64,000 nucleotides of DNA from Apostichopus japonicus (taxonomy: Eukaryota; Echinodermata; Holothuroidea; Aspidochirotida; Stichopodidae), in NCBI RefSeq assembly GCF_037975245.1, contig NC_092580.1, positions 27,059,501 to 27,123,500 of the forward strand, given 5' to 3'. Below are positions 5,201 to 47,000 of the stretch, one piece after another (position 1 is the first letter of the stretch; each line of letters opens with the position of its first letter). The notes under the pieces are model-generated. The model had not been told where the DNA came from and did no database searches. It was given only the letters and a program-made list of their open reading frames with translations. The translations under genes and the position numbers were made by a program.

Positions 5201-8200
5201 ATGACTCAATCTCAAGGTGCTGAGTGTGGACAGAATTAAAGATGTTCTTTTAAGGTGAAAATTCTGTTTTATGGTCAAGGAAACTGTACTCTTAAGAGGG
5301 TTGGGGCAAAATGGGGTAAAAGACTATACAAACCCAACCCTCGTCACTCTTCTCCCCAAGTTTCAGGTTGGGTGCACCTTCCTGGATGATGAATATACTG
5401 AATAAACAGATATGTAATGAAATGCTGAAAATGAGTTTGCTGTTAAGTTGACTTATAAGGAGACAAAGCAGGTTAAAAGAAACGGCCATATAGGGAGAGC
5501 AAAAGGCCACCAAGTGCGCAAGTTTGTCGACTTTAAGAAGATTAAACAATCTTAAACATCACAACTTTTTTCTTTTTAAAGAAAGTTAAGAAACTTTGGA
5601 AGTAAACAGTAAATTTTCAAAATTGTAATTGTTTTTTTTTCATGATTAGAAATATACATTTTACTAGTCAAACTAAGTAATTTCAATTTTTACTGGATGT
5701 TTGACATTGCATGGTATCAAAATGTAAACAAACTCAAATGCAAAAGGCATATAGGAACATTATGAATCAAGTTTTTATCATATCAGTATGATATCACTGA
5801 GGAACAAAAGAATCCTTGTTTCCAACTCTGTGCTTTTGAAATTTGAAGCTGTCTTTGTGTTTCACACACTCATTGAAGGGTGTGAAGACTCGCGCACAAA
5901 GAAACATCTCATGCCGGTAATCTGACCTAGTTTCGAATGAGGTGTAACAGAAGTGTTAGACACCACCATCGATCCCAGAAAATACACACACAGCTTGCTA
6001 CCGTTGGTAATTAGACACTAGTGTACAGTCAATAGATACAGCTATGGTCAATACTCAATACCCACAACACAGTGTACATATAGCAGCGATTCTCAGGTCT
6101 AGATAAAAGATAACAAGGTATCACGTTTTATGACTGTCTGCATTTTGTAGCGACAAGAAAAAAACTTCACTTGCAAGCAAAGGATAGTTAACTTTTCCAG
6201 AGCGCGGCACGGGGTTTGGGGCGAGTCTTCAATGCCTTTAACACCAATTTCAACTTTGCTTTTGCAGGTATAGAGGTTTCCCTTTAGAAGATCAGTCAAT
6301 GTTACTATCGGCTGACTCCAGACAGTATCGGTGCAATTTTCTGGGAACGACTTACCCCGGATCATCTCGAGAGTACTTAGTGAGAATCATAGAGACATCT
6401 CACCTAAAGGATTATTGCTATGTCAAAACTAGACAACTGTAAGTATTTCTCTTGTCTCTTAGTACTTGCCTTTCCATTTGTAACATAAAGGTCAGCTCTG
6501 CATATATATAAATTGCTAGATAATAATAATAAATAATATTTGGTTTTTATATAGCGCTTTATATCAGCAATAGGTCTCAAAGCTCTTTACAGACGTTATA
6601 TTACCCCTGGTCAATGATGACCTGTCCCAGAGACAATCCCTCAAGTGGGCTGAAGTTATATTCTGCGCCCAATGACAAGTTACCTCACAGGTACCCACTC
6701 AATCCCTGGGTGGAGAGAGGCAAGTGAGATAAAGCATCTCGCCCAAGTAGTCAAGGACACAAAGTAATGAACTGCTTGATTGAGCAAGTGATTCTAATGA
6801 ATTATTTGCTGGTCACATTTTAGCATAAAATTTGAATACCCTTGAACAGAAACCTCACTTTTGTTGAATTAAGGTCATATTAAACAGATGTTTGAAATCT
6901 CGAAAAAAAGGCTGTTGATTGAAATATTAAGTCTTAGCCCTACCCTACCGTACTATTATAGTTGAGGTTCTATAGATTGGACAACTTTGCATATACAGTA
7001 CTTAATTGGGAGTAAAATAGTTAAATTGTCATAAAAACTGCTGTGATTATCTATTTATTTTGACTGCGTGATGAAAATGAAAAAAATTAACAAGGTATTT
7101 TGAGTGAATGATATGAGTAGTGGAATAAAGTTAAGGGGTAATCTACATGTTTACTTTAGTCAAAAGGACATTGCTTTATATGTCGCTAAAAATCGAAAAC
7201 ACAATATGTGCATTTATGCAAGTCTATAGCAGGTGAGTTTGGGTGCAGCGTAATGTATCTCAAGTTCACGAATAGAGATAAAGTTTACCAACAACAACAA
7301 AAGAGAGAAAATGTGAAAGCCAAACAAACAAGCAAAACAAGAAAATGCAGTAACTACTAACATCACACTTGTCATAGCAGTCAGTACAAAGACACATACT
7401 GTGGTGTAATCTATTTACGTAGTAAAAGATGTAGAGCGCCACAACCAGGAGATCAACGTGGCGGCGTCCATGTCTGTACGATACTTGTTAAACGTTTGTA
7501 ATGAAAAGTCACGGTTTGTTAATATAGGCTTACTGTCATATTTCCAGCGAACAGAGACAACTCTCAGAGGCATTGAGGATGCCATAATCCGACACATACC
7601 GACTTCTTTGTTACCCACTTCATATGCAAAGTAGGGTTCTGATATAGGATAACGACAATTAAATATATTACTTAATATGTAAATTAGTCTGTCGGAACAG
7701 TTAAAATATGCAAAAGACAGGGTTTGTGCCGTTGTAAGTGGGTGTACATTTGTTGTGGATAATTCTTCTCACTCACTAGTTTAATTATCCTCTGATTATT
7801 TACTTAAAATTTTCAACCTTGATTTAATCTGCATTGTTTTTCACGAGTTTGCTATTTTAGCCTGTTATCTTGGCTTTCATTGCTTACACCCATCTTCTAC
7901 CCCTCGCCCTTCCCCATGTCCAGTATTTGTTGCGGGTGATACAGTTCTTACAAAAAATAGTCATCTTTTCGTTTTCATAGGTGGGAAGCAGAAGAGACGA
8001 AAGAATCGATGGAAGAATATATCCAAATCTTACAACAGAGTGACTTGACTCTGAGCCCCATCGGAAAGAACATCGAATGTTATCGGATCTACGAGGCTGC
8101 TGCGATGGGTTCTGTACCGGTGATAGAGGACGTCAGAACTTCAGATCGGTGTTCGGATAGGACGCTTAGGGTGCTTAAAGATAGGAATGCACCCTTCATA

Positions 8201-8362
8201 TACGTGAAGGATTGGTCAGAACTACCTGAGATCATAAGAAAAGAGATGAAATTAACTCCAGAAATGATCATCGAAAGGAGAAAGAATTTAATAGAATGGT
8301 ACCGACGGTTCAAGGAAGATTTACGTCAACTATTTTTCAACGAGTTGGAGAAAAGTCTGTAG
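2235..8362 (+). CDS. RXYLT1: Ribitol-5-phosphate xylosyltransferase 1 (RXYLT1/TMEM5 orthologue), six exons
   Basis: In the Golgi the family transfers xylose from UDP-xylose to ribitol-5-phosphate on the O-mannosyl glycan of alpha-dystroglycan. Exons are 2235-2373, 3049-3198, 4180-4270, 4882-5184, 6268-6438 and 7981-8362. All junctions are GT-AG and in phase, giving 1236 nt and 411 aa (human protein about 443 aa). The N-terminus is a type II anchor: basic residues 4-14 followed by a hydrophobic helix at about residues 15-33. Family-specific blocks include GDYTWEHILGG (exon 3), VLNGR, LIGNEECNNEW and LQWPLGSAT (exon 4), CNFLGTTYPGSSR (exon 5) and SDLTLSPIG..ECYRIYEAAAMGS (exon 6), the nucleotide-sugar-binding type C-terminal block. 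The start is the first of two adjacent ATGs (2235 and 2238). A TTAA-flanked MITE ends 30 bp upstream of exon 5. The assignment rests on recalled similarity to vertebrate TMEM5, which is strong throughout. Confidence 0.95.
3448..3754. mobile_element. Short hAT-like MITE in RXYLT1 intron 2
   Basis: The ends form imperfect inverted repeats, CATTGGCGTAGGAA at the left and TTCCTACGCCCTTG at the right. An 8-bp direct repeat ACCTCATA lies at 3440-3447 and again at 3755-3762, which fits the 8-bp target duplication of hAT transposons. The interior is dominated by G- and C-runs near the right end (3676-3740) and has no transposase. The 122-aa plus-strand open frame across it is repeat-derived. Confidence 0.65.
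5877..6237. mobile_element. TTAA-flanked MITE, copy A (RXYLT1 intron 4)
   Basis: This is one of three copies in the window (also 20558-20921 and 32934-33196). Its termini are AGGGTGTGAAGACTC and the inverted GAGTCTTCAATGCCT. The right flank is TTAA and the left flank TTGA, probably a mutated TTAA. It shares a long internal block with copy B, including the stretch around ACCACCATCGATCCCAGAAA and a run of ACACACA. It has no coding capacity. Duplication of TTAA is typical of piggyBac-type transposition, but the AGG terminus is not the usual piggyBac end. It stops just 30 bp before exon 5. Confidence 0.65.
6522..6770 (+). repeat. Dispersed SINE/MITE-like repeat in RXYLT1 intron 5
   Basis: An AT-rich start (TAATAATAATAAATAATATT) leads into TTTATATAGCGCTTTATATC. 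The segment ends near a block reading GCCCAAGTAGTCAAGGACAC. I recognise this style of element, with an 'atagcgcttta' head and a 'gcccaaggacac' tail, as widespread in marine animal genomes. I cannot assign a class, and no tRNA-type promoter boxes were verified. Confidence 0.45.
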
Positions 8363-15749: not shown

Positions 15750-18700
15750 TTATCTAAAACATTCCAGGTCTGTTAAATCTTCTGCTGAAGTAGCATGTAA
15801 TGTAGACTCTTCTGAACATTCAGGAATCTGATCCCATTTCAGGAAGCCTGTTCCTGTAGGGGAAGAAGGAATGAGGCAAACGATTTAGATATCAAATGAA
15901 ATATTTTATTTATATAATATATTTTATAATATTAAATTGAGTCAACTGAAGAAATGGTCAGTACCAATGCCATATCTTACTGTGTACACTATACTCTTGC
16001 ACTGGTCAAGTAAATCATACTTTGCAACATTTATAAAACTATAAAAAGGAAATTATTCCAATATTTGGAAACATTTCGTTGGCAGCAGTTGAAAGGTTGC
16101 ATTTACTTTGCTATCTTTGGAATTATTAGTTTCCACAAAATGGTAACAAGGTTCTTTGCTTTTCATGTAACACTCTTGATATCAAGATAAAAAAGCAAAT
16201 TAATTCTAAGCCTTTGTTTCATGTTCCTCTTCATATATCCATTAGTATTTTGACACATTGATTTGTGAGATAAATATTTGTGTTCTATATGTAAATTATA
16301 TTATGTATCGAGTTTGTGTGAATGGAGTGATGTACTTGCCAGTGAATGACTCAATGTAGGGTCTTATGTTAGCATATATTTTAACAATACTCAAATTTCT
16401 CATATTAGCGTTGTTTTGTTTCATTTGTTGATTTATCATACTTATTAGTTAACAAAGAGGACAAGAGTAAATAACATAATTTTTTTACGAGAGAAGGAGA
16501 GGAAAGAACACCTTATGGGCTTTTAGTACTGTATCTTACTTAGAAAGGTTCCAAGGAAATAAATTTTATAAAAAAGACAGTCCAATCTGCTACAGCAACA
16601 CCCATCCCTTACAATTACTCCCATCTCCCTCGTTATGTTTGTTAACTTTTGTTTAATATAAATTGAAAAAAAACATAAATTACAGTGTCAATGTTGACCT
16701 ATTGTTTCATTACCCAAGCTCAAATTTTCATCTTGCTGGATAACTAAACTATCCTTGCTATGTTAGGTTCCCAAAGTGCAGGAAATCTATAAATTACAAC
16801 TAATGTATATATTGCCAGTGGAATCATATTTATTAAAACTTACCCGTTCTGTCTTCTATTTCTTGTGTTTCTATGGCATTACTATGAAAGATCCACAAGT
16901 GACCATTATGACAGGCTTGTAGGCAAGTTAGACAAGGCACTTCGACATGGTATCCTACTACATTTCCACTGAAAACAAAAACAAATATTAATTGTTACTG
17001 ATAGAAGAAGTTTAGAATTCATAATATTTTATTTTAACTTTCCCACCAACACGCAAGGAAAGTTGAGCTAAATATGTAAGAAAGAAGTTCCAAACATATT
17101 TAGTGAAAATGCTGTACATAAGATTTAGGAAGACAAAATCTGTGGATGGGCTGAACAAACTTCCTTTTTTCTTTCTTTGAATGAAAATGACTTGTATCAA
17201 ACTGTTACAGAGTAATTTGCTTGATCAAATCATATCTGCCTGAATACCTATTGTTATCTAATTTTTGAACTTATAAGAAACACATAAGAAACAGAGGCTT
17301 AATCTTTCCTAGGCTTAATAATAGGCTTAATCCTTCCAAAGTGAAATTATTCAAATAATTGAGAAATCACTCAACTTTATTGCAATAATTGAGTGACATG
17401 TCCAAATTGGTTGGAATCACAATAGGTCACACAATTCTTCTTTTGAAACAGACAAGCCTGATCAATTTTAAATCGATAGCAGAACAAGCTTCAGGTAAAA
17501 ATTGCAGAAGTAATACTAATCAAGCTGATATTTTAATTAGTTATTCCATCCAAGAATGAAATATTTGCATTTTGCACTTTTGTAAAGTTCAGCTTGGATC
17601 AACATGATCAACTCAATTCATTGTTTTTTTTTCCCCACAAAATTTGAATTTTAGTTTCATGATCCAGTAGCTAGATATAATCATGCATTTACAGCATATT
17701 GTTTTACAAGAAGAAAAGGACACAGAATTATGGATTATATTTTTGAAAAGTTTCCTTTCCTTCCACCTCAGACCACAACATTGAAATGGGAAAAACATGC
17801 ATATATGGTTTACGAATTGTAAATGATGCTACTAATATTTTTTTTTACATCTTCAAACTCATTTGAAACTAATTGGCATTTCTAGAACTTACTCTGTAAC
17901 TCAAAATAACACTAAAGATCTATGTTTCAAAGTATGATTTCAGCACTAAAACTGTCATCTTTTACATACTTTGATGAAACTTTAAAATGCTTCACTTACC
18001 ACTGGGTACAGCCCATGTCACGTATTTTACACTGGCACTGTTTTGTTGAATATGTTTCGCCCAATTGACCAACCCTCCTGTAAATAGATAAAAGTTTTGT
18101 TATTGATAAATATTACTTGATTGGGTGCCAAACCTTTAGGACCAAAATGAAAATCACTGTCTTGTAGAATATGTCACTAAAAGTTTCAATCAACACTATT
18201 TGCGAGTAAAAGCATTCCATCACGGTAACACATGGTTTTAATGGAGGACAGTAACATTCTTATATTTACCTTTTTTATTGCAAATAAATTTCTTCAAAAG
18301 ATGTAACTTAAAGGAGCATAATGCGTTTAAGTATCGCCCCCAAAGTGGCACCTGCATACCATTAATTGTGATCTTTTCACTACTCCAAACAGGTACCAAA
18401 CATTTTTTGCACATAAATAGTGTCAAATTCACAAAATTGTCGATTCTATGAAAGGTTCCATCACAGTACTCTCTCTTTCATCAATCGCAGGTTGCTGTTA
18501 TGTAAATGAATGTAGGTGACAATGGAATGCTAAAATTTCCAGATAAATTCAATATGGACCTTTAAAATATCTTGAACCTTTCCTGGTAATATACTATTAA
18601 TCCAGTTATGACTGTTAGTCAACTAGTCTTCTGTCAGTCAGTTATCCTTAATTGCAAGTGTATCAAAAGTAATTAGTTAATCCAAAATTGTGTTCATTAA

Positions 18701-19507
18701 TACAGTATCACATCTCCAAAGGTCTACATTAAGCAGTCATTGCTCTTTTACCTACCTTACATTAAACAGCAAAATGAAGAACAATGCCTATCATCCTTAA
18801 TATTTGCCACAATTTTGTCTATTAGCTTCAATTTGGGGTGACAGCTAAGTTATAAATAAAAAACATGATCCTTTATTTGTTTAATGTTTCTTTTCAGTTT
18901 GTATGTTTATCTCAGCAAACAAAACAATCTTTAGTATTTTTGTTTGGGGGGAAACTAACTGTAGTAAAAAATAATGGTATATAAACAAACTTAAGGTACT
19001 CTAACTTAATATTTGGTAATGTTTGGTCAACTTGATGGACAATGGTGACCAAATGCAAGCAATTGCACACTAAATTTGTAGCATACATGGACGTGTATCA
19101 ATTAACTTGTAACAGCTTTGTAGTGATAAACAAGCTAGGACCCTACAACTTAAGACTTCCCTTAAATTATTATCACAATATGATTAGCCTAATGACGTTC
19201 CGCCATAAAATACTAAGCTGATACCACTAGCATATACGGCCTATAATAAATAGAAACTGTGTGGTCTATTACTAGTACGTGTTAGGCCTACTATGAAAGT
19301 ACACTATGACTAATACTGCCTAGGTCATCCGAAAGCGTTAGTTACACGTTAGTGATAAGCGTACATTCGAACTGGTGCATCCGTTGAGAACAACTCTTGT
19401 TTTGTGTCTGCAAGAAGTACCGCTTTCATTCCACGGTTACAAACAGTACTGCAACAAAACCGACATCGAACTGCAAGGACTGTTTTTTTTCCAAATCCTG
19501 GGTGCAT
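15750..19507 (-). CDS. FAM72A: FAM72 family protein, four exons
   Basis: Vertebrate FAM72A is a small cysteine-rich protein reported to bind and lower nuclear uracil-DNA glycosylase (UNG2). Minus-strand exons are 19507-19365, 18077-18000, 16968-16844 and 15853-15750, all GT-AG and in phase, giving 450 nt and 149 aa, the same length as human FAM72A. Visible marks are CRFCC (residues 15-19), the block GMKAVLLADT (26-35), FSTD (40-43), CQCK (62-65), CTQCGNVVGYHVEVPC (71-86) with a further CLTC/C/H set, NGHLWIFHS (95-103), and a conserved Trp in the C-terminal KWDQIPE block (121-127). The cysteine pairs suggest zinc binding. The start is the first ATG after an in-frame stop. The exon 1 donor is GTACGC, weaker than the others. 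It is divergent from the srGAP gene, about 500 bp away. The symbol follows the human orthologue; invertebrates usually have one copy. Confidence 0.94.
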
Positions 19508-20011
19508 TTTTTTGGCAATTTCTGATACTTCAAGTAATGAAAGTATACAACCTCACGTTAGACTCTTCCTAGAGATGGACGAACACGAAGATTTCTACGT
19601 CTCTGATGTTGTTATGGTCCGGTGATTTAAATAGCTATTAGAATAAATTCAATCTCGTAATTGCAAATAAAAGGATTTCATTGGCAGAGAAAAAAATGAC
19701 GTCAAGTTTTTCCACCGCCTCATGAATGATGAATATTCAGCTACGCATGCGCAATTTACAAGTAGCGCCTCCTTTTTCGTTTGCAACACTGCAGGTGGCT
19801 TAGTCTTTTCACGTTAGCAAATCACTTCCGCGATAAGATGGCGAAAGTCAGTCAATGTACACATCAATGGTAACCCGATCATGGTCAAAAGCTCGATTTG
19901 GAAGGAAAACACATCCCACGAACTGAATGCTTTCTCCAAATTCAAGAACCTCTTCAAAGAAACACATTTGCCTAACTATTCTCAAAAGCCTCGATGTGGT
20001 AGTAGGCTAAT
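19508..20011. promoter_or_regulatory. Bidirectional FAM72/srGAP promoter
   Basis: A 504-bp gap separates the two divergent ATGs. It contains a perfect CRE palindrome TGACGTCA (19697-19704), an NRF1-like TACGCATGCGCA (19742-19753), an ETS-type CACTTCCG (19823-19830) and a YY1-like AAGATGGCG (19835-19843) in the plus orientation. This is a TATA-less set typical of divergent housekeeping or cell-cycle promoters. The YY1-like site usually lies just downstream of a start site, so srGAP transcription may begin near 19820. That position is inference. Upstream ATGs at 19839 and 19881 would lie in the srGAP leader if so. Confidence 0.6.
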
Positions 20012-23000
20012 ATGTCTTCCGACAAGAAACAAGAACAAGCGATTCAGAAAGAATTCGATGGTCAAGTCCGCGGTAAGTATCACACTCAATAATCACAGTG
20101 CCTAACCTGCTTACTTTCGGGCAAAGGCCATCATGTAACTTACAGTATGTGTAAGCCTAAGGTCTGCCACTTAGATTAGCCTAAGCATAACTATGTCGGA
20201 TTTCAGGTAGATCACTCATTAGGACCATTTTATGGGTACTGAATCTAAATATTAGTACCACTAATATTTATCAGTGTCTGTATTCTTCTAATATTATTAG
20301 TGTCTCTATTCTGTGCATGTTTCTGTCCCTTCTGTTACTGTAACATATCATTTAGCCTCTGAAGAACATCCTGCTAGGATCGAAACTTCAGGCCAACTTA
20401 CTTTAACACCTTCTCTTACAGAGGCTTCTTAGTGGATAAGCTAACAGTTTGCTAATAGTTTTATTTTATTTTAATATTTATTATCATTAGTTTGTACCAG
20501 GCCTGGGCTAGCACAAGTGCACTAGCAGAAGCAGCAGTATTTGCACAGCAAGTTTAAAGGGTGTGAAGATTTCGTGCATAATGAAATGTCTCGTGCCGGT
20601 AATCTGACCTTGTTTCGAATGAGGTGTAACAGAAGTGTTAGACACCACCATAGATCCCAGAAAATACACACACAGCTTTCTACCGTCGGTAATTAGACAC
20701 TAGTATACAGTCAATACATACAGCTACGGTCAATACCCACAACACAGTGTACATAGCAGCGATGGGTCTAGATAAAAGATGACAAGGTATCACGTTTCAT
20801 TACTGTCTGCATTTTGTATCGACAAGAAGAAAACTTCACTTGCAAGCAACGGAAAGTTAACTGTTTCAGAGCGCTGCGCAGTCTTCAATGACTGGGGGGG
20901 GGGGGGGGGTCTTCAGTGCCTTTAAGGAATGCAGCCTATATATCAAACTTGTTTTGAAAGAAATGTAGCCTAACATTGTATGTAATTGAACATGAAACTG
21001 TGAGAGGCTGTAGGTCAATAGGTAAATTTTGCTTATTTTATACCAAACTTTGTAATCAAAATTAGCATACTGGATTATCCTACATTCCATGTTAGTTACT
21101 AATGTTTACCTAGGACAACTGGCCCAATGGTTTCCACAGAGTACGAAAGTCATGTAAAATTGGGAGCGCTCTTTTAGTTAGAATTTCATTCAGTAGAAAA
21201 TGTGCACACTCTTGGGATAAAACATTTGTAGTAAAATTGATACCATTTCCAGAACTCATTTCCTGAACCCCCAGATTGTTTGGTTCAATATAATATCAGA
21301 GTAAGTACCTTTCCTCAAGAAATATGTAAACAAGTAAAATAATGTTTTTTTTTCTTTCTGCAATGGGTCTACCCCAAAATGTGTGTTATTTTGTGCAACC
21401 AGTTTTGTATGTGCTTATTCCACTAACTTTGCAGGATTCATAATCCAAATATGTAATGAAAGTCTCTGTGATATGTTTAACATAAATTAAAGGTTAGACT
21501 TTAGTTACAGGGACTTAAATTACTTTTACTGTGGGTATATTTTTACTACAAGGTTGATGCAAAAGTTTGGAATTTGGCAAACTAAATAACATCAGCTACG
21601 TTTATTTGTTCACATCAAATTCAGATTGTATATTAATAAATGCCTCCACACCCCCCCCCCACCCAATATGAAAAATGATAATTGGTTACACCCTTCATTA
21701 CTTTGGAGATACTGAAATAAAATGACATATGGTAAGGGTAGGTCTGTGTACCATCAGACAGACAGTGAGTTTTACTAGCCCTAAGCATAGAGGTAGGGTC
21801 GATCAAAGCTCAGTTCAAATGGAACAAGTTTTTAAATAAAATATCATCAGGAAATTATGTGGAAGGGGTAATAGACTTTATGATAATCTTTAACAAGTTA
21901 GCTCTTGTGTCTAATCTCCTGCCACAAATGTGTTAATCTGTTTTCATTACATCTTAGACATTTAAATGCTTGCTTTAATGTGTATTTCAACTCCCTGTTT
22001 TGACACAGGAAGGCAATGTTCCAGTCTTAGTTCTAATTACTGTGTATATGTGATGAAAGCTCTATGCACATGTATTCAATTTGGTAGACTTAGGTCTGAC
22101 AGTGAAACCAAATCTGTTCCAATTCTGGGAAAGACAGACTGATAATCTAATATGCTCAATGACACTATTTGTGGGGTACTAATTCCTGATGCTCAGCTCG
22201 CTACACAGTTATCTTGTAATAGCTGATAAGCTGCTACATGTCATTTGTTCTGAGGCAACGGTGCATGCATGGAAGAACAGTAGGTATGTTGTACTACAAT
22301 TAAGCAGGCCCCTAAGCTCTGAAGATGTTGCAGTACTACTATTGCATCTCTCAATTTTGAATCCAAGTGAGTTAGTTAGTACTGTAAGTCAGTGGAACTA
22401 CCAAACAATGGACATTTACAGGTCTAGTAGTTTTAATACAGCCATATATGGCAATTTTCATTCAGTGGATTTGACCTTGATTTATAACCAGTCTTTATGA
22501 AATGGCTAAAAATTTCCAATGAAAATTCTTTCACTCAAGTGTTACAAAAGTGTAACCTTTAAAGTTTTGTAACAAAACAGTGAGAATATAGGGAATCACT
22601 TTCTAGTGAACACAGTTAATATGTTAACTGCACACTAATATAAAAGCTTGTAATAAAACCATTATCCTAGAGAGGTTGGAAATACTAAATAACTTACCTT
22701 TTGGAGACTTTTATGTTGGATAGCAAATTAATAGTAACTTTGTCATTGGAAAAGTGAATAATGCATTAAATCAGACTTACAGACAAATAGATGAGAACAG
22801 ATGGATACTCTTATCTACAGGCCTTGGAAGTTGGATTATTTACTGGGTAAATGCCAGTGGATTTAGCTATTTGCCAGTAGGAAAAAAAAAGGTATTGGCA
22901 AGTTTCTCTCAATAGACATTATTAACTTAAATACATAGTAAGTTGGTTACCAATCGCCAGTCAAAGAATAAATTCCATACCGTATATTTAATCCCTGTGT

Positions 23001-26000
23001 TACGACATATTATCAGCGAATGTGAATACTAGGCTACTCTCAAAAGTCTGTAGTAACTGATTTCTGTTACAATTCAAGAATTGCTAGTGAGAACTTGTTC
23101 TTAGCCGTTCCTTCAATTTTGTAGGTATTTGCATTGTTATTAGCACATGGCTATAATTATAAAATTCTAGGCCTGGCCTATTTAATGTACTTTTTTTCAG
23201 TACAGATACAGTAGGCTTGATAGTACTACAATCAATGTTGCCTACACAAAAAAAAAATCATCAACATGGTACATATAGTGGTGCTCTTTTGCACAAAAAG
23301 TGGTGCTCTTTGCACAAATTTGCATCTAAACTTCACAAACATACATTGTAAATAAAGGCCAAACAGGGATTTAATTAAACCCAAACTTTCCATTTAAAAG
23401 TAAGTAGTGTCAGTTGGTGGTGTTTAGAGTAACACATTTTAAAACACAGCAGTGTACTAGTTAATTATATTTGTAAGCAAAGTATTTCCAACCTGTGACA
23501 GTACTAGTCTGTTACATTTATTGATTTCTGTGGTTTATCGATTGTGTTTACTAACAAGCCCTGAAAAGTACAGTGCAAAGGGTGATGGCTGGCATCAATA
23601 TGATAGTGAACTGTCATATTCGCCAACACCTAGTCTGGCAGCAATATTTACTTTAATATGCACAGTTTTAGCAATGCTGAAAAGAGCAAAGAACAGTTTT
23701 ATACATCGTACAAGAAATATCATTTTAAATTTGGGTTAAATTTTGGCGCAATATTTTGGTCTCATACGGGGCCATCTTATTCAAATCTTATTCGAATCTT
23801 ATTCAAAAATGATGATATAACAGAACGTCTGCTACTAAATGTCTTTTTTAATTTCAATGAGCAATAATAAAAAAATGTAGGTAATATGAACTTCTGAGCC
23901 AGGATGCAGGTGTGCAGGTAAATCCATTCTTTTCTCTTTTGAGGGTATGTACAGGGTACATGTATGTCATATGTAAACATTACCGGATGGTGACAAGTAT
24001 TGTTGAGGTCAATTGAACAAAGGGTGTGCCAGAGGTATCAAAGAGCTCTTGATATGGTTTCACCTTTAACTGGGTTGCAATTTAATCATAGGAATGTAGA
24101 CTGTTATAGTAAGTATGAGCTCTTGTGGTAGCTCATAGAGGAAGCTAAATGAAATGCCACAACAACTTTATTTATTTCAGTATATAACAAATTTTATGAT
24201 TGATTATCATTTAGCTGTTTAGTTTGCTGTGTCGATATTTATTTTCTGAAGAGGATAAAAGCAAAACATCGTTGTCAGGGGATAGTAGTGTCCTCCCTCT
24301 TATTTCGAATCATAATCGCTTAATATGTCAGTTATTACTCTCCTTCTGTCTCTTATAAATGGCCAGAGCTAAATATTGACAAGGAAGTTGATTAAGAAAC
24401 TACTTGTAAGAAAGCTATGGTACAGGTAGGTCAGTTTCAAATTACTTAGGTTTGAAAGGTCTGAGCGCTACTATACATGTTGGGAGTGTTGGCAAGGAAG
24501 CGTCTTCGCGAGTCTTGTTGAACCAGTTTCCTGGTCTATTTTCATCTTGATGAAAACTATCCAGACTATGTCTTCTCGTTTTAGAAATAGAACAGGACAC
24601 AATTTCCTCGTCTTCATGCCCATCATGTATATTCAATGGTGAAGCCAAAAGATGGGGCAGTGCAGTGGGGTTCATCTTGACTTGGGAAGTTGGGACCCCA
24701 GTTAAGATTTGAAACAAGAGAAGACAAATTTAATGTTCTTCAAGAAATAGATCACTACAACTAGAATCACATAACAGCCCAACAGAAGTAATACATGTGG
24801 TCCAGAGTTTGACTTTATATTGTTGGACAACAGGAAGAATGGAATAAAAGTCTTAGAAAAGAACATGCATGTATATATGTAACATATCAGTGGCTGAAGG
24901 CTTAAAATCTATACACATCACAATCTTCACACATTTGTGGCAAACAGACTAACAAACTTGGAAAGGTCACTGTACATGGCATTGATTTCATGTTTGAAAG
25001 AGGTTACAAATTATCATCAATGAAAGCATTGGCGTACAAAGCGGGGGGGGGGGGGAGTTGGGCAGACTGCACCCCCAAAAAAATCAGGGTAATAAAAATT
25101 TTGGCACCCTCAGGAGAGAAAGTGAAATTCAATTTAAACTTTAAAACAAATATTGCAAAGGCTTTTTTCACCGTCGCTCCCCCGAGTTTTGTTGGATTCT
25201 GGCCTGAATTGTTCTCGAATTCCCCCCAGATCATTCCCGATGTTTGCTCACAATGTTGCCGAATCTAGCCGGAATCGTTCCAGATTCTCGTCCAATTCTC
25301 ATCCGAAACGTCAAAGACTCTTGCCTGAATATTTCGACACATAATGTTAAACATCCAGAGATAAAAAGATTGCCAGCCTTTTTAGATCCCAATATTTTAG
25401 GGGCCCCACAATTCAAAAGATTAGTCAAAAATTTGCCCAGACTTGGGACCCTTTTTGACGGTAATCTTTTCTTCAAACAGCATTGTTTAAAGGCCCTCCA
25501 GACTGCCCATTTTATAATATACTAGCTCCCATCCCCTGCATGGGGTGACATAGGAAGGATCTGCCTCTGGTGCCAATTATTCTAGATTTTATAATGACAA
25601 AGTTGTAACAACTTACAGACAGATTACCTATGCATGCGTAATATTTATGAAAGGGTTCGTTACTGATGATAAATTATTGAAAATTGGCAAACCCCTGTCC
25701 TTGTTTCTATCGCTGCTGTGTGTATTCTGTGGAAGCACTCAACTTAATTGATTTTACTAATGAAATCACTCTTTTTCACGCTTTGTTCAACCATGGAGCT
25801 ATAAACACCGGGGAGTCACTTTCTAAATTAGATGACATTTAAGTAATAAATTGTTGTAATTCACAGGCATTTATGTACAGCAAGCAGAATCATAGAGTCT
25901 AATGAAACGAGGCTGTTGTTGATCTTCTCCCAATATCAGTAACTCTTTATTGTCCCTTTAAATTTCATTTGAATGAGAAAAGGTACACAAATTGTATGCA

Positions 26001-29000
26001 ATATTCTTACAATGGGCCTTTTGCTGTTAATCCACCTGAAAGTGCCTTCTTCTGTTGTGAATTTGCTAGGAGAAGGCAAGTAGTGTACACCAATACATCC
26101 CATGCAAAGTTTCTACTTAAAAACTGAAATGAAAAAAAAATGAATTTAAAGTCATAGGGATTGTAGCAGTGTGTGAGAATGCTGTTAAAATAGGCAGACC
26201 CCCCATTTCTATGTGTTTGCAATACATGGTAATGGACCTAATTATTGAACTGCCAATAAGATGCAGTACTAATCTGACTAAATTAAAGTCAACCGTAAGT
26301 CTATAACATTTTCTGGCTTTGAAACAAAAGTCTGTTTTTGAGTGAAATGGTTCCAAGAAATGAATGCCATGTATGAAGATCCAAGGGGTCCTCCCTTCGG
26401 ATTCCTCCCATGGGGTCCCTCCCTCCTTTTTACTCCCTGTCTCTCCCTCACCCTTCCTCTCTCCCTCCCTCCCTCCCTCCCTCCCTCAACCTCCCTCCCT
26501 CCCTCTTCCATTCCTGCCTGGGATACCTTCCCTGGATATCCTGTACCAGGATGTATGGAATTGTTTCCCTCTATAAGTTGCAGCCATTTACTGCAGGCTG
26601 ACCTGAGTGCTGCAGACTAAGGTCACTGCTGTGAGTTGAGCTCACTTCTCATTTAAGGTGACCCTCCCAGTTGTATCTGGCTCAACTCAATCCTGTAGGC
26701 TGAGCACCTTGTTATCGTCAGAGCTCACTGCTGTAGGCTGAGCTCACTGCTGTAGGCTGAGCACATTGCTATCGGCTGAATGTAGTGCTGTAGGCTGAAC
26801 TCAATGCTTTAGGCAGATTTCACTAAGTATGGCAGGCTGACCTGATTGTTGCAGGGTAAGGTCACTGCTGTGAACTTGGCTTACTTTTTACAAGCTGACC
26901 TGTGTTGTAGGTTCAGCTCAGTCCTGTAGGTAGAGCTCACTCCTTATAGGCTGAGCTCATTGTTATCAGCTGAACATAGAGTGTTGTAGGCTGAAGGTTA
27001 AGCTCTTGCTTGTTAGCTTTAACATTCAAACTGACCTCACTACTGAGGTCTGAGCACAGTGCTCTACAGAAGGCTGTAGTCAGTGTTGTAGACTGAGGCC
27101 ATGCACTGATGTAGGCTGAGCTCTCAAAGTGCCATTAGCCAGGCACACTGTGCTACAGTATAGCCTGAGCTCATGGCTGTATGCATGTACCTGGAAACTG
27201 GAAATCCGTTGAGGATGCAAGCAAAGCAGATAGGTTAACTTCAATGTTCTTTGTCTGACTTGTGTGAAATTCTTTACAGCTCTTGAAATATGGTTCAATG
27301 AATCCAACTTACATTTTCACTTTCCTTCTATTCGATTTACATCAGCTCATTGTATCATTATGTCCTTGAATATAGATACAAGTACCTTTACGTTAGTATG
27401 TGACTGCTGAATATGGTTTGTAGTTATACTATGATCAATCACTTTCATACACCTAGATGCAAGGCATTAACAAGCATTTCCTGTTTACGTAGCAAAGGGC
27501 ATCAGCAGTTCCTATTTATAATAAGCGTAAAATTAAGGGATAGGTCCCTATAGTTAGACATGAGAAGCGATGATTACATAACACTTTCAAGTTTCTTACA
27601 AACCTTACTCTGTCTTAACATTATGCTTCCTCAGTCGACCTAGAAAAAGTAATGCTTTTGACCCTTAATAAATAAAAAAAATGGAGGAAGTCTTTAAATT
27701 GATATGACCTTAGAAGTGGAATATTACAGCCACTGGTGGCATAGATGTGGTGAGAGGTTACCCGAGTTTCGTTGAAGGGTAGAGCTGGGAGGTATTGGGA
27801 AGGGAGTGTAGATCTGGAAATTATTTACAGTAGTTTTGTATAGAGTAGTGAATCTCAACATATAAAAACCTACAGTACTTTGTACTCTGTTATAGTGGCA
27901 TTTTTGTAAGTTAAGAGACGGTATAGGGAACAAACAAAAGAAAATAGACCTGTCTCAATAGAGCATGAATAACTCTATTCTTTGAAGTTAGTGAATATAG
28001 CAAACAGGCTTGGAATCAGGGAGGTACATCCACCCCCCCCCCCCCCCTTTCCCTCTTTCTACACATCCTACACACACAAAAAAAGAAAGAAGAAAGTAGT
28101 TAAATTAGGCTTAGCACAACCTTGCATTTAGAGCATTTACACTATATTATAGCCTACTGCAAATATGTACCACTTTATATCTAAAATATTGCCTCCTAGT
28201 CAATACATAGGCTCACAGGACCACATACCCTCTGTGTTACAATGCTGGATTTTCCCTCAAGTGGCATTATACCATGTCTCACAGCTGTCACAATCATCTA
28301 TAAAGTTCACCTCCCATTGCAACTATACAGGAGTAGTTGATCCATAAGCAACTTTCCAGACTTCCTTACAGCTGCTATACATGTATGTGTAATGTAGGTT
28401 TCACCATAGCATATATATTAGTATACATATTATACAGAGTGGGTTAAAGGGAAGATAATTTGCCGTGAGCCTGGACGATTTTCCTCTGCTTTGGTCAATG
28501 CAACGATAACAATAACTTCAAATGCTTGCCAATGACAAAATAAGGAATTACTGTATGTATAATGTACATAGAATTTTGTGGGACACCAAATCTGTTGCAT
28601 TGGATAAAACTATGAACAGCTCGGTACACACTGACAAGTTACACTACAGTAGCAGAGTGACTAACGTAATATCTTGGACTTCCTTTCAATATTCACATCT
28701 GGATCATCATCGTATCCAGGTATGGAAGATGATACCGTCTTGAATTTGAGGTAACCTTTGGGTTCAAAACACAGTGACAGTTACCGAAAGCAGACACCCA
28801 GAAGCAATTAGCATTAGATCCCGGAGCACAGGGTTCAGTTAAGGGTCTGATTTGGTAGTGTACATGTATGCAAATGCTGATCAGACCCCGCGATTTGAAC
28901 CCCAACAAATACACCTGGATCGAAGAAGGATCAGACACTGTGCTTGGTGTTGAATTTGTAATGTAATCAGCTTGTGGCTGTGTGATTAAGGGTAATGCAG

Positions 29001-32000
29001 TATGTCACACAGCTTATAGTTTCACACAGTTTCTGCTAGTAAACAAACCTGAACTTCCTGTCTGGTGATTGCGAGTCCCTGTGGTTTGATGCCGAGCACA
29101 AGGGAGGTTAAACATAGCTTGTCTTAATGTTGAACACCAAGGGGGAGGGAGGGGGGGGGAACTGATTGGTTATGTTGGTGTATGATATACAAATCATGGA
29201 AATCAAGTAAATCAGCTCAACTGAAAACTGGAACTTTTTGCTATGATATCATCAGAGAATACCAAGCTTGTAGCTATTCCTGGAGTTTCCAAGGGTTTAT
29301 GTATCAAAGGAAAGTTTCCAGAAGTCTAATATCACAAATTGGAACAATATATGTAGATGTGCTTTTCAAGCTGTAGTAGCGTGGAATATGTTTCTTCTCT
29401 CGGATATGTGTCATAGAAAGCCAGTGTCACAGAAGGTGTTTACACTGTTATTTTTCAATGTATAATTAGGCAGTTGCCGACTTTAACTTTGATAAATGTT
29501 AGCTTAAAGGGGCCGGTACAGAATGTCTCCATGTCAGAGTGTAGATGGCTGTCCCAAGTTCGTGGAGAGCTGCAGTAAAGAAGTGCTCTTGTTTAGTAAT
29601 ATTTATTTTTGACAATAATTTTGATGTCGTGGGATTCGCAAGGAAATGGTTCATTAGAGAGTCACAGTTCTTCAGTAGTGTAGAAGAATGCTGTAACCAG
29701 AAAATAGCTTCAACTCTACATTGAATATCGGATTTTTCTTTCTCTTTTTCCCCCCATTCTCGGTAGATATTGAAGCAGAATTCAAGATCTTTCTTTGTCT
29801 TTTTCCCTCTTCTTGGTAGATATTCGAAGCAGACTATCAGAGCAGCTCACATGTCTGGATAAGAGGTCAGAAGTTGAAAAGGAAGTCCTGCAAGATTTTC
29901 AAGAATTTTTCCAGTCTCGAGCAGAGATTGAAAAAGACTATGCAAGAAGATTGGAAAGGCTCTATGAGAACCATGCAAAGAAGAGAAGACTACAAACACC
30001 GTAAGTTCTTCCCACCCTACTCCCGCCACCCCCCCCTCCCGCCCCACACACCTTATACCCACTCAAACTTTAGTTTGAATTCATTGGAAACAAATAATAA
30101 CCAGCCTGCTTTTGTAGGAAAGAAAAATGCTTGATTTGTCTCTAATTGGTTCATAAGATATATGAATTTTGTGAAAGAAACAACTTAGGGGGTTAATTTG
30201 TGATGAAGTCGGAAAATTCAGGATATACTTGAATGACCTGTTATGAATGCTAGGAATTCCTTCTTCCCTTCAAAATGAAATCAGGATGCAAGATTGATTA
30301 AGAAAATAAGCAGAAAAGAGAAAACTTGACATTGAGCCAAAGAAATTCCTTTTTTTCGTAAGTCACGTTTTGTATCGGAAACTTCCAATTGCAACTCAGT
30401 GCAAATTTGATGCTATCTTTATTCATTTATAAATTAAGTTACTTTCGAATAGGGTAACTAGGCTTCTTACCAAAATCCATCAAATATGGATGTAAACTGA
30501 ACAGTGAAGTATGATAAAAGAAATAATTCATGCAAAAAAAAAATGCAATTCATTAAAAAAAAAGATGGTTTTAAACAACAGCAGTGTATAAGCCATACAA
30601 AAGGATCCATTACCACTTCTGAGACAAAACAATGCAATTTACCACTATTGCAATACACAGAAATAAAATTTATTGACCAAATTTTTTTTGTTTTTTAAAT
30701 ACCTACTGTAGTCTTCTATGACAGAGCAACAAGTTAAAGGAGCTTATTGAGTTTATTCTTTGGTCATTTGATTAGTCAAATTTCATTTTGCAAAATTATG
30801 CAAAACGTTGAAAGATTTTAAATTATGCAAAATTTTGGCTTTTATTCGAATCATTAAAATTGTTTAAGAAATGTCTGGGTGAAGAAATTTTAAGGATTAT
30901 GTCACATTCATTGATAAGTTAAGCACGAAGAAGTTCTAAAGTGAAATATATTAATAAATTGTCTTAGTTAGTCAACTGTAATCTTATTTTGAGTATTACT
31001 TGTTTGTTTCTGAAATTTGCTGATCAGACACAACAATGCCAATTCTGTAACAGAAGAATGCCTCATTGCCCATGACATTCATAACACTATGTTCTAGATT
31101 AATAATGTGAAGCTAGATGTTACATTACATTACAGCATATTAAATTACCATACATTATGCATTAGTGCATTATAATGCATTACCATACAGTGTCTAGTAC
31201 ATGATTACATTTTACTACAAACTTGATACATTACATTACCATGCATTACAGTGTACTTGAGTGTACAACACACTTTGTTATAATACTAATATTAAAATTG
31301 ATACATTACAATACCATGCACAACATGACCATGCATTACAGTGTACAATACAGTGCAGTACAGTGTACAGCACACTTTGTTATACTACTAATATTAAAAT
31401 TGATAAATTACATTACCGTGCACGACATGACCATGCATTACAGTGTACAATACAGTGCAGTTCAGTGTACAGCACACTTTGTTATACTACTAATATTAAA
31501 ATTGATACATTACATTACCATGCACAACATGACCATGCATTACAGTGTACAATACAGTGCAGTACAGTGTACAGCACTCTTTGTTATACTACTAATATTA
31601 TAATTGATACATTACATTACCATGCACAACATGACCATGCATTACAGTGTACAATACAGTGCAGTACAGTGTACAGCACACTTTGTTATACTACTAATAT
31701 TAAAATTGATACATTACATTACCGTGCACAACATGACCATGCTTTACAGTGTACAATACAGTGCAGTACAGTGTACAGCACACTTTGTTATACTACTAAT
31801 ATTAAAATTGATACATTACATTACCATGCACGACATGACCATGCATTACAGTGTACAATACAGTGCAGTACAGTGTACAGCACACTTTGTTATACTACTA
31901 ATATTAAAATTGATACATTACATTACCATGCACAACATGACCATGCATTACAGTGTACAATACAGTGCAGTACAGTGTACAACACACTTTGTAATACTAC

Positions 32001-35000
32001 TAATATTACAATTGATACATTACATTACCATGCACAACTTGACCATGCATTACAGTGTACAATACAGTGCAGTACAGTGTATTACATTTATCCAGTCTTT
32101 TGTTGACCTACACTTATATATTCCAACAAGAATATTTCTGTGTGCATCATTTTGCCTGATTCTCTGTTTTGTAGATCGAATGCAACAGAGCCACAGATAC
32201 CAAGCACAATCGCCTGTTGGAATGTATTGATGGACATGACCAGGAGTCACCAGAAACACCACCAGATACTGGGTACCATTTATGGAGATCACCTCTCCAG
32301 CAGGTTTAACCATCTCAAGGATGCACTGGAAACTGTTTATAGAAAGGTAAGAATTTATGTAACTTTCGTCATTATTTATGTCACTGGCAAGAATGGGGGA
32401 AAATGGGGGAGATTATGAAACACCTTGAAATATAATCATGGTAGGCCTATGACTTTATTGTTATGTCACTTCAGACCTCTCAATGTAATATGCTGTAGAA
32501 AACAAAATCAAGCTGAATGAAAAAAAAGAGGAACAGTATGTTTACTTGCACAGTGAATAGAACAAAGTATCGGAGGGACTAGCAGGTTCGCAGTCCACGC
32601 ATACTTCTTCCACTTTCTGAAGGAACTGACTGACATAGCACCATTGTGATAGTTGTCAAATCAAAGTGATAAGGTGTCTACTGCAGTATTATGATGGTGT
32701 TGTAGGAACTGCTTTAGAAGTAAGAAATATCTAATTTACACTGCTATTACTCTTTGCTGTGTGATCTTAACCAAAGAAAAAATTACAAGGAAACAAGTGT
32801 TCCCCAAAAATATACTAGACAGATAAAACCAAACATGATTTCCAGTGGTGTTACCATTTCACCTCTTGTACTGACATTACACTGTTTCCTCTTTTAGAAC
32901 ATAAAATGTATACACACTCTTAAAGGGTGTGAAGACTCGAGCAAAAAGAAAAGTCTTATGCTGGTAATTTGACCTAGTTTCGAATGAGGTGTAATGTTCA
33001 GAAGTGTTAATCACCACCATCGATCCCAGAAAATACACACACAGCTTGCTACCGTCCAGCTAAAGATAACAATTAAGCTATCATGTTTCATTACTGTCTG
33101 CATTTTGTAGTGACACAAACAAAACGTCACTTGCAAGCAACAGAAAGTTCACTTTTTCAGATGGCCCCCGCGGTTTGGGGGGAGTCTTCAATGCCTTTAA
33201 CCTGGCCTAGAACAAGATTGTTGCACCTGTGCCTTCCAATGGCCCTCGTGGGGGTCACTGCACTCTTGCTTCTGAATCTGCAGTTATGAAGTCTTAAACA
33301 CATTTTTTTTTAGCTTGGATGGTCTTTAATCAGTGAGGGTTACATTTAGCAGTACTTTCTGGCTTACCTGTCTCCTCTTATCAACAGCATTCTCACTCTA
33401 CATTGTGTAGAGTGCTCTGATAATCACATTTCTAGAGTGATTGGGTTAATATTACCAAAGGTAACATATCCAGTGAATAAACCAAAGTTACTCTGCTCCT
33501 CTCTTATCTGTCTCCAATCTACATTTTGCACTTTACCATCTACCTAGAAGCTAGATGAGGAAACATCAAACAGCTTGCAATAAAGCTTGCAGTAACCTAA
33601 TTTTGTTACGTTCTCCCTCCATTTAAGCTACACTAAAAGTTCTCTCACAAATAGTTCTCTCTGGGTGATTTCGTTCAAGCAAAGCGTCCTCATTGAAGTG
33701 CCAGTCATCTTAGTGACTCACATAACCCTCCCAAAATTATATCAGAAAGCCTATTTGTGATGAAGTTGAACAGATATCATCAACAGTGCAAAAATTTAAT
33801 GTGTTGAATATATATTCCCAAAGAATAATTTCTGTACACTTGACCTATCGCCGGTAAAGTAACTCTGTAACCTATACTGGGCTACTTCTGATTTGTGAAA
33901 TGAGACGTTACCGAAAAAATACATATATATTTTTAAGTATCAAGTAAAAATAACCGATACCGAAACATACTTAATCGTCAGGGGAGTTTTGACTAATGAA
34001 TGCATGTACAGTACTGCGATCCAGTTTCACACACAGTCTCACAGAATAAGTTAGTGCTGAAATATTTAAGTAGCAGTGTTGAAGGATCTAAAGCATTTGT
34101 CTAAAGACTGTGCTTCCCGTGTAAACAAAACTGCTATACATCTGTGGACTTGTATCGCAATATTTGTATAACAATTTGCGACGCGATACTGGATGAATTA
34201 ACACTATAACCTACTAGTGTCGAAGGTTCAGTTCCTTGTTCCTCTCTCTTATCTGTTCCCAGTCACCTTTGCACATTCCTGTCAACCTAACAACCTACAA
34301 TATTTGTAACGTCTTTAGCACCGAGTACTATCCTGTGTCCCACATCCGGGAGGGAATCTTGTCGATAGTACCGTCTTCTCCCTACAGTATCATTTAGGGA
34401 GTTAACCTACGTGTTCTCCACAGAGATTTTTTTTTATCCGGGAAGACTAGTTCGGTTCTTCACAGTGGAGACAGATTTCTCACTCAGTTTCTTTACCATT
34501 GGTGGGGGAGGGGGGGGGAATATGGGTAATCTGGTGATCTTATCAACTTTCACCAAGTAGAAGAGTGTATAAGTTATGTAAGAAGGTAGGTCTGTCTGTG
34601 CAGAACCGACTTACAGCTTACTTCCTTATTTACAGGGAAGATCCTTCCATTCAAGCAGTGAACTTCATCCACTGCAGAAGTCAATAGTAACAATACGGAA
34701 GGATATCTTTGTTTGTCTTAATCTATTGTTTGTCTAAATCTGCAACGAATGGAATGTTTAGCCATCTAATTTGCCTCTTTCTTCAAACAGGATTTTTTTG
34801 CTGTCGAGTTGTGTGTGTGCAGTATGTGCGTGTGTTTATGTAAGTGAGTGTGTATATGTGTAAACTGCTTTAGCTGGTAAAAATGAAATCCTAAATTAAG
34901 GAGCGAAAATGTTGACAATGTTTGAAATTAGCATTTGACCTGCACACTTGGGTGTCTAAGGTCATTTGAGGTCAGCAGAAATCAACAGGTGAAAATGGTT

Positions 35001-44000: not shown

Positions 44001-47000
44001 TCTGTACTATTCTTATGTATGTAGTTTATAATCCCGTATTTACGTAGCCCCTCTGTAACATTCTTATTGTCTAAAGTTCCAAACACATAGTGACTTGTTC
44101 ATAGTTAAAAACTTTTCTTTGTGAACTTTTGAACTTGAAGAGGTTGCCCTATTTCAATATCATGGAATAGTGGGGAACTCCCAATTTCTGTTTGTGTACG
44201 GATTACAAGTTTAATCCATGTGCGAACGTGTTAATCTAATATCGTACGTCGAGTATGAATGAAGGATGGTGTGGGTTGCTTTTTTCCAAGGTTTGTGCAT
44301 TTCTTTATGGAAGTGTATGTTAAAAAACAAAGGCCCTAATATAGCATGTTATTTTTTAATTTTTTTTTTATAACCCTGCGTGTAAGAGTATGTACATAGC
44401 CTAGGCTATGCATATGATATTGACAGTCTCGTAACTAAGTGCTTTGAACCATAGATGAAAGTTGAGGAAAATCCCGGTTATAGTTATGATACCGGGATTC
44501 ATGTTGCAACACTACCGGTTGTGTGAAATCCCACTACCGCACAACGCTAGTACATCTAGTATTAATATAAACACAATTCGCTCTGAAGTTTGTAGGAGAC
44601 TTGAGTATCTTTTACTATGCAGTGTTATGCAGTTTTAAAGGCATGTGAAGTTAGATGAACATTGGTTATGGAATTGAAAGTGAATCTGTGTACTGGCATT
44701 TTTAAGATGTTATTAACAAAGTGATTGAAAGATCTGAATTTTTTTAATTTCACTTTCTCTTCTAACAGAGCAGGGAAATGACTGTGGAAGTTCATATGGA
44801 AATACTGAGGGTCGTCAACGAACTATTTTCTGTAAGTATATTGACATCCTGAAATGAATGCAAATATCTGAAAGAAAGTAGGAAAAAGGTACAATTTAGA
44901 AGCTAGGTTATTCAAAGTGTAATTGAAAATGTAAAAGCTCCCAGGCTGTGAAAAATAAGCCAATAATCAAGTATTGATGGAAGAAGGCGGAACACACTTA
45001 AGATTAATGTTTCACAAGTAATTGTAAAATATATTATTTTAGAGCTAGCTTGTATTTTGATATTTTTGATTTGTGAGTTAATAAGGTTGACACCAAAATC
45101 CTGGCTTGTATTATAAGCTGTTAAGAAACGCAAACTATTTTAGATTCGACATGGGCAATGTCCATCCATTACAGAAAATAAAACGTTTGCTTCACGTTTA
45201 GGCTTTTTGCATAATTTTACATTTTTGGAAACAAAACCAAGGTCAACAACAGAATTGGCAGCAAACAAGCACTTGTGTCAGCAGTTCTAGTTTCCTACAG
45301 GCGGACACCCTTTGTTCTAAGTAGCAAAAATCGATGAAGGAATACACCATAAGCTGTTTGCTTCATAAAGTTTGTTTAGTCATGGTTTTCATACATCATA
45401 GCTTGTGTGATAATTGTGGTGCAATTTTGTACAGTGAAAGTGAGTTTTTCACAAATCAAAGTGTGTGTGTGTGGTAGGGGTGGGGGGGGGGGGGTGGGTT
45501 GGATAAAGGGAGAGAGAGAGATTAATTTGTATTCTCCTCACATAGTCATCACCATTGCAGTCTCATCTACAGTGTACCATACTTCACAAACTGTACTTTT
45601 AAAACATTTTCCCACATTTCCAGCTCTTTCAGTATACCTATCTCCTCGCAACTTTCACACTCTCATCTGTAACGTGTTGTGCTTCATATGTTACAGAAGG
45701 ACTACTGACACAGTCATCTCTCAACATCATTCACCAAACATAAATCAGTATCTTGAGGCAAAAGTCTCACCTCATACCTAACATATAATGATTCTATTCG
45801 AGACTAATAGTTTGCATAAAGAAAAGCTAAACATTTTCAGACATTTTCAGACATACATATATATCTAGATATATATTTGCACACATATATACTATACAAT
45901 TGACCGCACTGTCAAAATATACTCCCTTAACACTGGCACAACAAGGATCCCAAGCTTTTTAAGCACATATATGCAACAAAACAAAAAAAAGTTTTTGGTT
46001 TTAATTTTTTAATTTTTTTTTTTTTTTGGGGGGTCATTATTTCATGTTAAATTGGACTATTAATTCAATTTTTAATTCAATTAAGCAACTGAACTGAATG
46101 TTCACACAATGGAACTTCAGTAATATATGATTTTGATATGGAAAAATTTATCAAATTTTATAGAGAAAGATGCTTGAAGGTAACATTGTGTAAACTTATT
46201 ACCCTGTTAGCAAGGACATATGTACAGTAGTGTCAATATGGATTCAATACAGTAGATAGTATTAATACCTATCAACCAAGGAACGACTGCAAAAACTGAC
46301 AGGGAGATTGGTATTAAATATCAAAGTTTTATGTTGTGAAAACTTAAAACAAATCTTTATTAAGGACAGAAAGCAGATCTCATCCCTTTTTGCTGTTTTG
46401 CTGTTTTTATTGACTATAACCTGTCAATGCAGATTTACTTCTAAAGTCTATTTGAGACCTTCAGTCTGCAATAGCTCACAAACCTGCACAGGGAATGTAA
46501 AGAAGTTACAATGAAGTTTCAACATTGTGGGCAGAAGTTGCTTGCCTGCTACATCTGTTTATCTTGGAAGGTAGATGTAATTTTCCAAAATTGACACTAC
46601 TGTACATATGTCCTTGCTAACAGGGTAATAAGTTTACAAAACTTCAAGCATCTTTCTCTATTGAATTTGATAAATATTTCCATGCTATTTTTTTTATGTA
46701 ACATTGAATTGTCCTTTTCAAAAATTGCTTTCAGAAATCCATTTGGGTGACCATTTGTGAACTTTGAACAATTTTTTTTCTTCACATTTTCAATCCTGAT
46801 GTGAGAGGCAGTGGGGATGATAAAACTTAAATTTTTATATTTATTTTTTTTTTTTAAATTGGAAATGTCATTGTCACTTCTATATGGCACTTTATATATT
46901 GGTTATTGAGACAGTCGTTGGATTCTGGGCTGTTTAGAAATAATTATTACTTTCGAAATGTACTTTTGCAAGGGAAGCAAAGCTGAGTGGCATGTGAAAC

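Follow-up and report, generated by a model that had tools for sequence, protein, structure and literature searches.

A head-to-head FAM72–srGAP gene pair beside RXYLT1 in an echinoderm points to an arrangement older than the vertebrate SRGAP duplications

Did the close neighbourhood of FAM72 and SRGAP2 arise within vertebrates, or has it been inherited from a more distant ancestor? The question is raised by a stretch of 64,000 nucleotides from the sea cucumber Apostichopus japonicus (hereafter the window; NC_092580.1, contig C20, positions 27,059,501-27,123,500), in which a FAM72 gene and an srGAP gene adjoin head to head with no gene between them. For vertebrates, both the pair and a divergent control proposed for it are already in print (PMC7957592), and the legend of Figure 1 in that paper states that the pair is not shown by other species; elegans and yeast are the outgroups in the available portion of a further study (PMC12672016). 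The echinoderm pair contradicts the statement in PMC7957592 that limits the arrangement to vertebrates. By title and abstract, the open-licence literature has yielded no report of a FAM72–srGAP pair outside vertebrates, some of the searches with invertebrate terms being loose and returning no FAM72 papers, and the echinoderm pair may already be visible in public annotation. In PMC3124438 the name 'FAM72' is given to a shrimp repeat. FAM72 itself has been annotated in a protostome, as FAM72A in a snail transcript (PMC4599737).

The start codons of the two genes are separated by a spacer of 504 bp (19508-20011). A preliminary description of the locus had proposed a complete FAM72 on the minus strand and an srGAP gene on the plus strand, beginning head to head about 500 bp apart, and all of this has held up. 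Its end point for the pair, 32346, has turned out to be the end of srGAP exon 3, and srGAP itself runs past the window. Open reading frame listings have been judged by eye and Pfam has been given the chosen frames only, while the whole-genome family searches were run exon by exon and are not exhaustive, leaving further copies possible. FAM72 has been resolved into four exons:

19365..19507, minus strand, FAM72 exon 1 with the start ATG at 19507 (PF14976 exon match of 50.4 bits; first in-frame ATG past an upstream stop)
18000..18077, minus strand, FAM72 exon 2 (tblastn match of 28.1 bits with human FAM72A; splice sites)
16844..16968, minus strand, FAM72 exon 3 (PF14976, 54.9 bits at C20:27076342-27076470; splice sites)
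15750..15853, minus strand, FAM72 exon 4 with the stop codon (AG acceptor, frame and PF14976 on the joined protein; carries the Trp aligned with human W125)

Joined across three introns that are all bounded by GT..AG, the exons of FAM72 (15750-19507) give a coding sequence of 450 bp with a single terminal stop and a protein of 149 aa. This protein scores 169.7 bits with PF14976, whose curated cut-off is 27, residues 5-134 aligning with positions 4-133 of the 145 in the profile; the copy given to Pfam had 148 aa, as it did not contain the residue formed at the exon 1/2 junction. Compared with human FAM72A, 70 of 142 aligned positions are identical, and human F104 and W125 are both matched by identical residues in the joined echinoderm protein. 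These two residues have been reported to matter for the interaction of human FAM72A with UNG2 (PMC8616359), and judged by the alignment the UNG2-contact residues appear to be in place in the echinoderm protein; the main text of PMC12223117 makes no mention of W125. No PDB chain has been matched with FAM72 as the query. A single FAM72 locus, represented by two exon matches, was found with PF14976 in the 671.6 Mb of the genome.

The srGAP gene is spread over a far longer distance, to about window coordinate 87,000, and its exons follow one another on the plus strand in the order F-BAR, RhoGAP, SH3:

20012..20072, plus strand, srGAP exon 1 with the start codon (ATG, GT donor; within the SRGAP2 match)
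29820..30000, plus strand, srGAP exon 2, F-BAR (49% identity over 57 aa to human SRGAP2; FCH PF00611; splice sites)
32175..32346, plus strand, srGAP exon 3, F-BAR (SRGAP2 match; splice sites)
44769..44831, plus strand, srGAP exon 4, F-BAR (38% over 26 aa with E 1.1, which is weak by itself; in-frame join, AG/GT ends)
63062..63238, plus strand, tentative srGAP exon 5 (tblastn limited to that stretch gives a weak match, E 0.001)
67.2 and 67.9 kb in window coordinates, plus strand, later srGAP F-BAR exons beyond the window (SRGAP2 chains only in PDB, 2.6e-23)
79.5-85.4 kb, plus strand, srGAP RhoGAP exons beyond the window (136.5 bits joined)
86.9 kb, plus strand, srGAP SH3 exon beyond the window (33.8 bits)

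From the ATG at 20012, exons 1-4 splice in frame with GT..AG ends, and in-frame stops lie upstream of the starts of both srGAP and FAM72. With exons 1-3 as the query, PDB has returned SRGAP2 chains alone (E=2.6e-23, at a threshold of E<=0.001), and among F-BAR proteins the predicted product appears closest to srGAP. The F-BAR, RhoGAP and SH3 exons presumably belong to one srGAP transcript. When the whole genome was searched, exons 2 and 3 matched one N-terminal locus, the one described here; the genome search with the FCH family lists five exon matches, and the single one on C20 is srGAP. Two further features have been observed within the gene. Directly 5' of exon 3 lies a tandem array (31260-32081) with a period of 102 bp, 8.1 copies and 96% matches, and a GC-rich section at ~54-59 kb includes, at 53943-56075 on the plus strand, an open frame of 710 aa with a Cys-rich start (GC 0.56-0.62 compared with ~0.37 around it). 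This frame has no Pfam match; judged by eye, it resembles a retroelement's Gag-type frame lying within an srGAP intron.

The preliminary description had taken the host for a non-vertebrate, and correctly so. The contig C35 (16,099 bp) is mitochondrial, and 6 kb of it show the frame order cox1-nad4L-cox2-atp8-atp6-cox3-nad3-nad4, the names having been given by eye. COX1 on this contig reads sensibly when AAA is taken as Asn and AGA as Ser at sites that are invariant in COX1, and the frame order is typical of echinoderms. The code is common to echinoderms and flatworms, and the gene order favours echinoderms. From the nuclear side, one tektin of the genome is closest to 8SNB (313.9 bits; the next chain reaches 211.7 bits), which is named as sea urchin in PMC10973386. 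Taken together, an echinoderm host is well supported. Run with bacterial settings, a search for tRNAs in this mitochondrial sequence has found none. Apart from this, C29, which is not the mitochondrial contig, carries a frame-broken COX1 copy at 14.7-16.1 kb, in four ordered pieces on the minus strand, and another partial copy at 30.8-31.2 kb; these may be either nuclear copies or a misassembly of mitochondrial scaffolds.

What ties the echinoderm locus to the vertebrate ones beyond the pair itself is RXYLT1, which lies to the left of FAM72 on the plus strand, tail to tail with it, and has both domains of that family:

4880..5185 (boundaries approximate), plus strand, RXYLT1 exon with the N-terminal domain (PF24786, 110.2 bits)
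6269..6436, plus strand, RXYLT1 exon with part 1 of the C-terminal domain (PF24785, 47.4 bits at C20:27065769-27065936)
7976..8362, plus strand, last RXYLT1 exon with the stop (PF24785, 178.9 bits; 177.2 bits in the genome search)

The C-terminal domain has been found at this one locus in the genome search and nowhere else. We take TMEM5 to be the older name of RXYLT1, and the sequence in which the genes of human 12q14 are given in a deletion paper to be their chromosomal order; TBK1 and IKBKE, like RASSF3 and RASSF5, are duplicate pairs. The available portion of that paper gives the OMIM genes as AVPR1A, DPY19L2, TMEM5, SRGAP1, XPOT, TBK1 and RASSF3, with LEMD3 also among the genes (PMC4525753). 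In another study, a bacterial artificial chromosome from the sole, a fish, is listed with il19, il10, mapkapk2a, dirk3, rassf5, ikbke, srgap2 and fam72a, in this sequence (PMC6579814). Given the TBK1/IKBKE and RASSF3/RASSF5 duplicates, a single ancestral region seems to have given rise to both the SRGAP1 and the SRGAP2 block. The idea that the echinoderm locus is the counterpart of SRGAP2 alone has been rejected, as RXYLT1 links it equally to SRGAP1.

Six gene families belonging to the human SRGAP1 block, picked before searching, have been sought in the echinoderm genome, and four of them lie on C20, which makes up 5.3% of the assembly: RXYLT1 in the window, a TBK1-type gene at 9.998 Mb (one exon, 39.6 bits), XPOT at 10.095-10.103 Mb, and a RASSF1/3/5-type SARAH domain at 10.99 Mb, the XPOT- and TBK1-type genes being ~97 kb apart. 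Among the four informative families not located in the window, three fall on this contig, for which our own arithmetic gives a chance of ~6e-4 if they are independent, and of ~0.008 if XPOT and TBK1 are treated as one unit. An origin of the pair before the vertebrate SRGAP duplications, as the preliminary description had suggested, is well supported by the RXYLT1 neighbour and this chromosome-scale linkage; the pair would then be older than the echinoderm-chordate split.

The preferred explanation, to which we assign a probability of roughly 0.85, is that the sea cucumber has inherited an ancestral deuterostome block RXYLT1(+)-FAM72(-)-srGAP(+), which vertebrates have duplicated and partly lost. 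We infer that the linkage is due to common descent. The order RXYLT1-FAM72-srGAP would have existed before the vertebrate genome duplications, and a whole-genome duplication in the vertebrate ancestor would have copied it. In one copy, now human 12q14, which to our knowledge is without FAM72, RXYLT1 would have been kept beside SRGAP1 and FAM72 lost; in another, now human 1q32, FAM72 would have been kept beside SRGAP2 and RXYLT1 lost. The segmental duplications of human SRGAP2/FAM72 would later have copied an already very old arrangement, and the echinoderm would retain both RXYLT1 and FAM72 on the same side of one srGAP.

In this explanation the spacer would act as a shared promoter, in which an NRF1/ETS/YY1 core lies towards srGAP and a CRE towards FAM72:

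19508..20011, no strand, candidate divergent promoter, the spacer between the start codons (CpG enrichment and motifs)
19697-19704, CRE core motif (exact core)
19743-19752, NRF1 core motif (exact core)
19823-19831, minus strand, ETS core motif (exact core)
19835-19843, YY1 core motif (exact core)

The observed/expected CpG ratio of the spacer is 1.04 compared with 0.46 over the 134-kb region, in which 2.5% of the 504-bp windows reach at least 1.0. Within the same region, the spacer is the only place with more than one of the four motifs, and among 5,000 first-order Markov sequences one has two of them and none has three, both counts being made with motifs picked after the spacer had been read. 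A fixed panel of ten promoter motifs, attributed to Xie et al. 2005, has three in the spacer. Of 13,350 overlapping windows 77 contain at least three panel motifs; 37 of these lie over the spacer, and the other 40 are confined to three sites (around -11.2 kb, -8.0 kb and 55.4 kb), with one site reaching four of the ten. The spacer is plausibly compatible with one compact, putatively co-regulating divergent promoter, and that both genes do fire from it has, in our estimate, about even odds.

Several observations weigh against the explanation by an inherited block with a shared promoter. The invertebrate evidence for the pair comes from this one echinoderm genome. The TBK1-, XPOT- and RASSF-type genes are 16-17 Mb away from FAM72 and srGAP on C20, and KICS2, which we take to belong to the human SRGAP1 block, is a miss, lying on C10. 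The LEMD3-type domain has found no match in the genome, an uninformative result. To the left of RXYLT1 follow ATP synthase gamma on the minus strand and then a sialyltransferase, and a MutS-type gene on the minus strand lies to the right of srGAP; as none of these is known to be a gene of 12q14 or 1q32, the conserved block is short. Concerning the host, a second tektin is closest to mammalian tektin-3 (209.9 bits, versus 127 for sea urchin), which is probably a different type absent among the sea urchin chains. Within the spacer there is no E2F site and CHR-type sites occur at about the chance rate, so that these cell-cycle elements have been rejected as weak features; both are named for the human spacer in the available portion of a review (PMC7957592). 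Two further details concern the same genes. C10 has two copies of the KICS2-type gene, separated by ~0.5 Mb (~15.77 Mb and ~16.28 Mb) and almost equal in their exon scores, either through a recent duplication or as an uncollapsed haplotype. ATP synthase gamma and RXYLT1 likewise appear divergent, in the opening 5 kb of the window.

The strongest competitor, which we hold to be only a little short of an even chance, keeps the ancestral linkage and explains its survival passively, by slow rearrangement and a 0.5-kb spacer that is rarely broken, with no regulatory tie. It shares the claim of ancestry with the inherited-block explanation, and the promoter is the sole difference. The XPOT- and TBK1-type genes have likewise stayed within ~97 kb, and slow rearrangement alone could thus explain the linkage; neither the missing E2F sites nor the chance rate of CHR speaks for a regulatory tie. 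The remaining srGAP genes of vertebrates, SRGAP1, SRGAP3 and ARHGAP4, persist and are not known to have a FAM72 neighbour, which argues against a tie that is needed. The human spacer, moreover, is given as 4 kb (PMC7957592, available portion). Passive linkage is harder to reconcile with 504 CpG-rich bp (1.04) that carry four promoter motifs within ~150 bp and offer scant room for two independent promoters.

That echinoderms and vertebrates acquired the adjacency independently draws on the sample of a single invertebrate genome and is very improbable in our judgement. With the 19,828 genes reported for an Apostichopus japonicus assembly (PMC10344927, accessible part), we have estimated the chance adjacency of these two given genes at ~1 in 10,000, and RXYLT1 together with three more SRGAP1-block genes on C20 would demand further coincidences. 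Still more remote is the reading of the contig as vertebrate DNA or a misassembly. Nothing has been found in its favour. The window is internal to a 35.5-Mb contig (35.49 Mb; the assembly has 671.58 Mb in 35 contigs), with zero N in the 134 kb read around it, and its FAM72 shares no more than the 70 of 142 positions with human FAM72A. Several srGAP N-terminal loci would be expected in a vertebrate, and on the single locus found and the echinoderm mitochondrial contig we have rejected vertebrate contamination; a misassembly of the junction on C20 is unlikely.

With common descent of the block, the pair probably arose in the deuterostome ancestor or earlier, and RXYLT1 completes a definite ancestral order of genes that accounts for the surroundings of both SRGAP1 and SRGAP2 in human. 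An echinoderm FAM72 that appears to carry the UNG2-contact residues also implies that FAM72 was not born with vertebrate antibody diversification. Embryos of sea cucumbers or sea urchins offer a simple system, free of human-specific copies, for testing shared control. One may even speculate, though we consider it doubtful, that the spacer has long worked as a two-way switch, older than vertebrate-type nervous systems, joining a gene of proliferation to one of cell shape and migration. Selection would have preserved the linkage for >500 million years, and genome duplication would have relaxed this constraint; vertebrate SRGAP2/FAM72A would then be the single copy left of a regulatory unit of deuterostomes, not an invention of the vertebrate brain.

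Set beside known systems, the echinoderm pair resembles the vertebrate SRGAP2-FAM72A pair ('|-SRGAP2-FAM72-| master gene') in both families and in their divergent orientation, and in echinoderm and human alike FAM72 comprises four exons and encodes 149 aa (human values from PMC7957592). It differs in that one srGAP locus has been found, whereas vertebrates have several, in RXYLT1 still standing beside FAM72, and in a spacer of 0.5 kb between the start codons, compared with the 4 kb given for human in the same source. With the human SRGAP1 block at 12q14 the locus has in common that RXYLT1 neighbours srGAP and that the two genes are oriented alike relative to each other; XPOT-, TBK1- and RASSF-type genes are on the same echinoderm chromosome, but at the distance of 16-17 Mb. 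Bidirectional-promoter pairs, finally, of which the locus is a candidate member, are alike in start codons <1 kb apart on opposite strands, a CpG-enriched spacer, and NRF1, ETS and YY1 sites.

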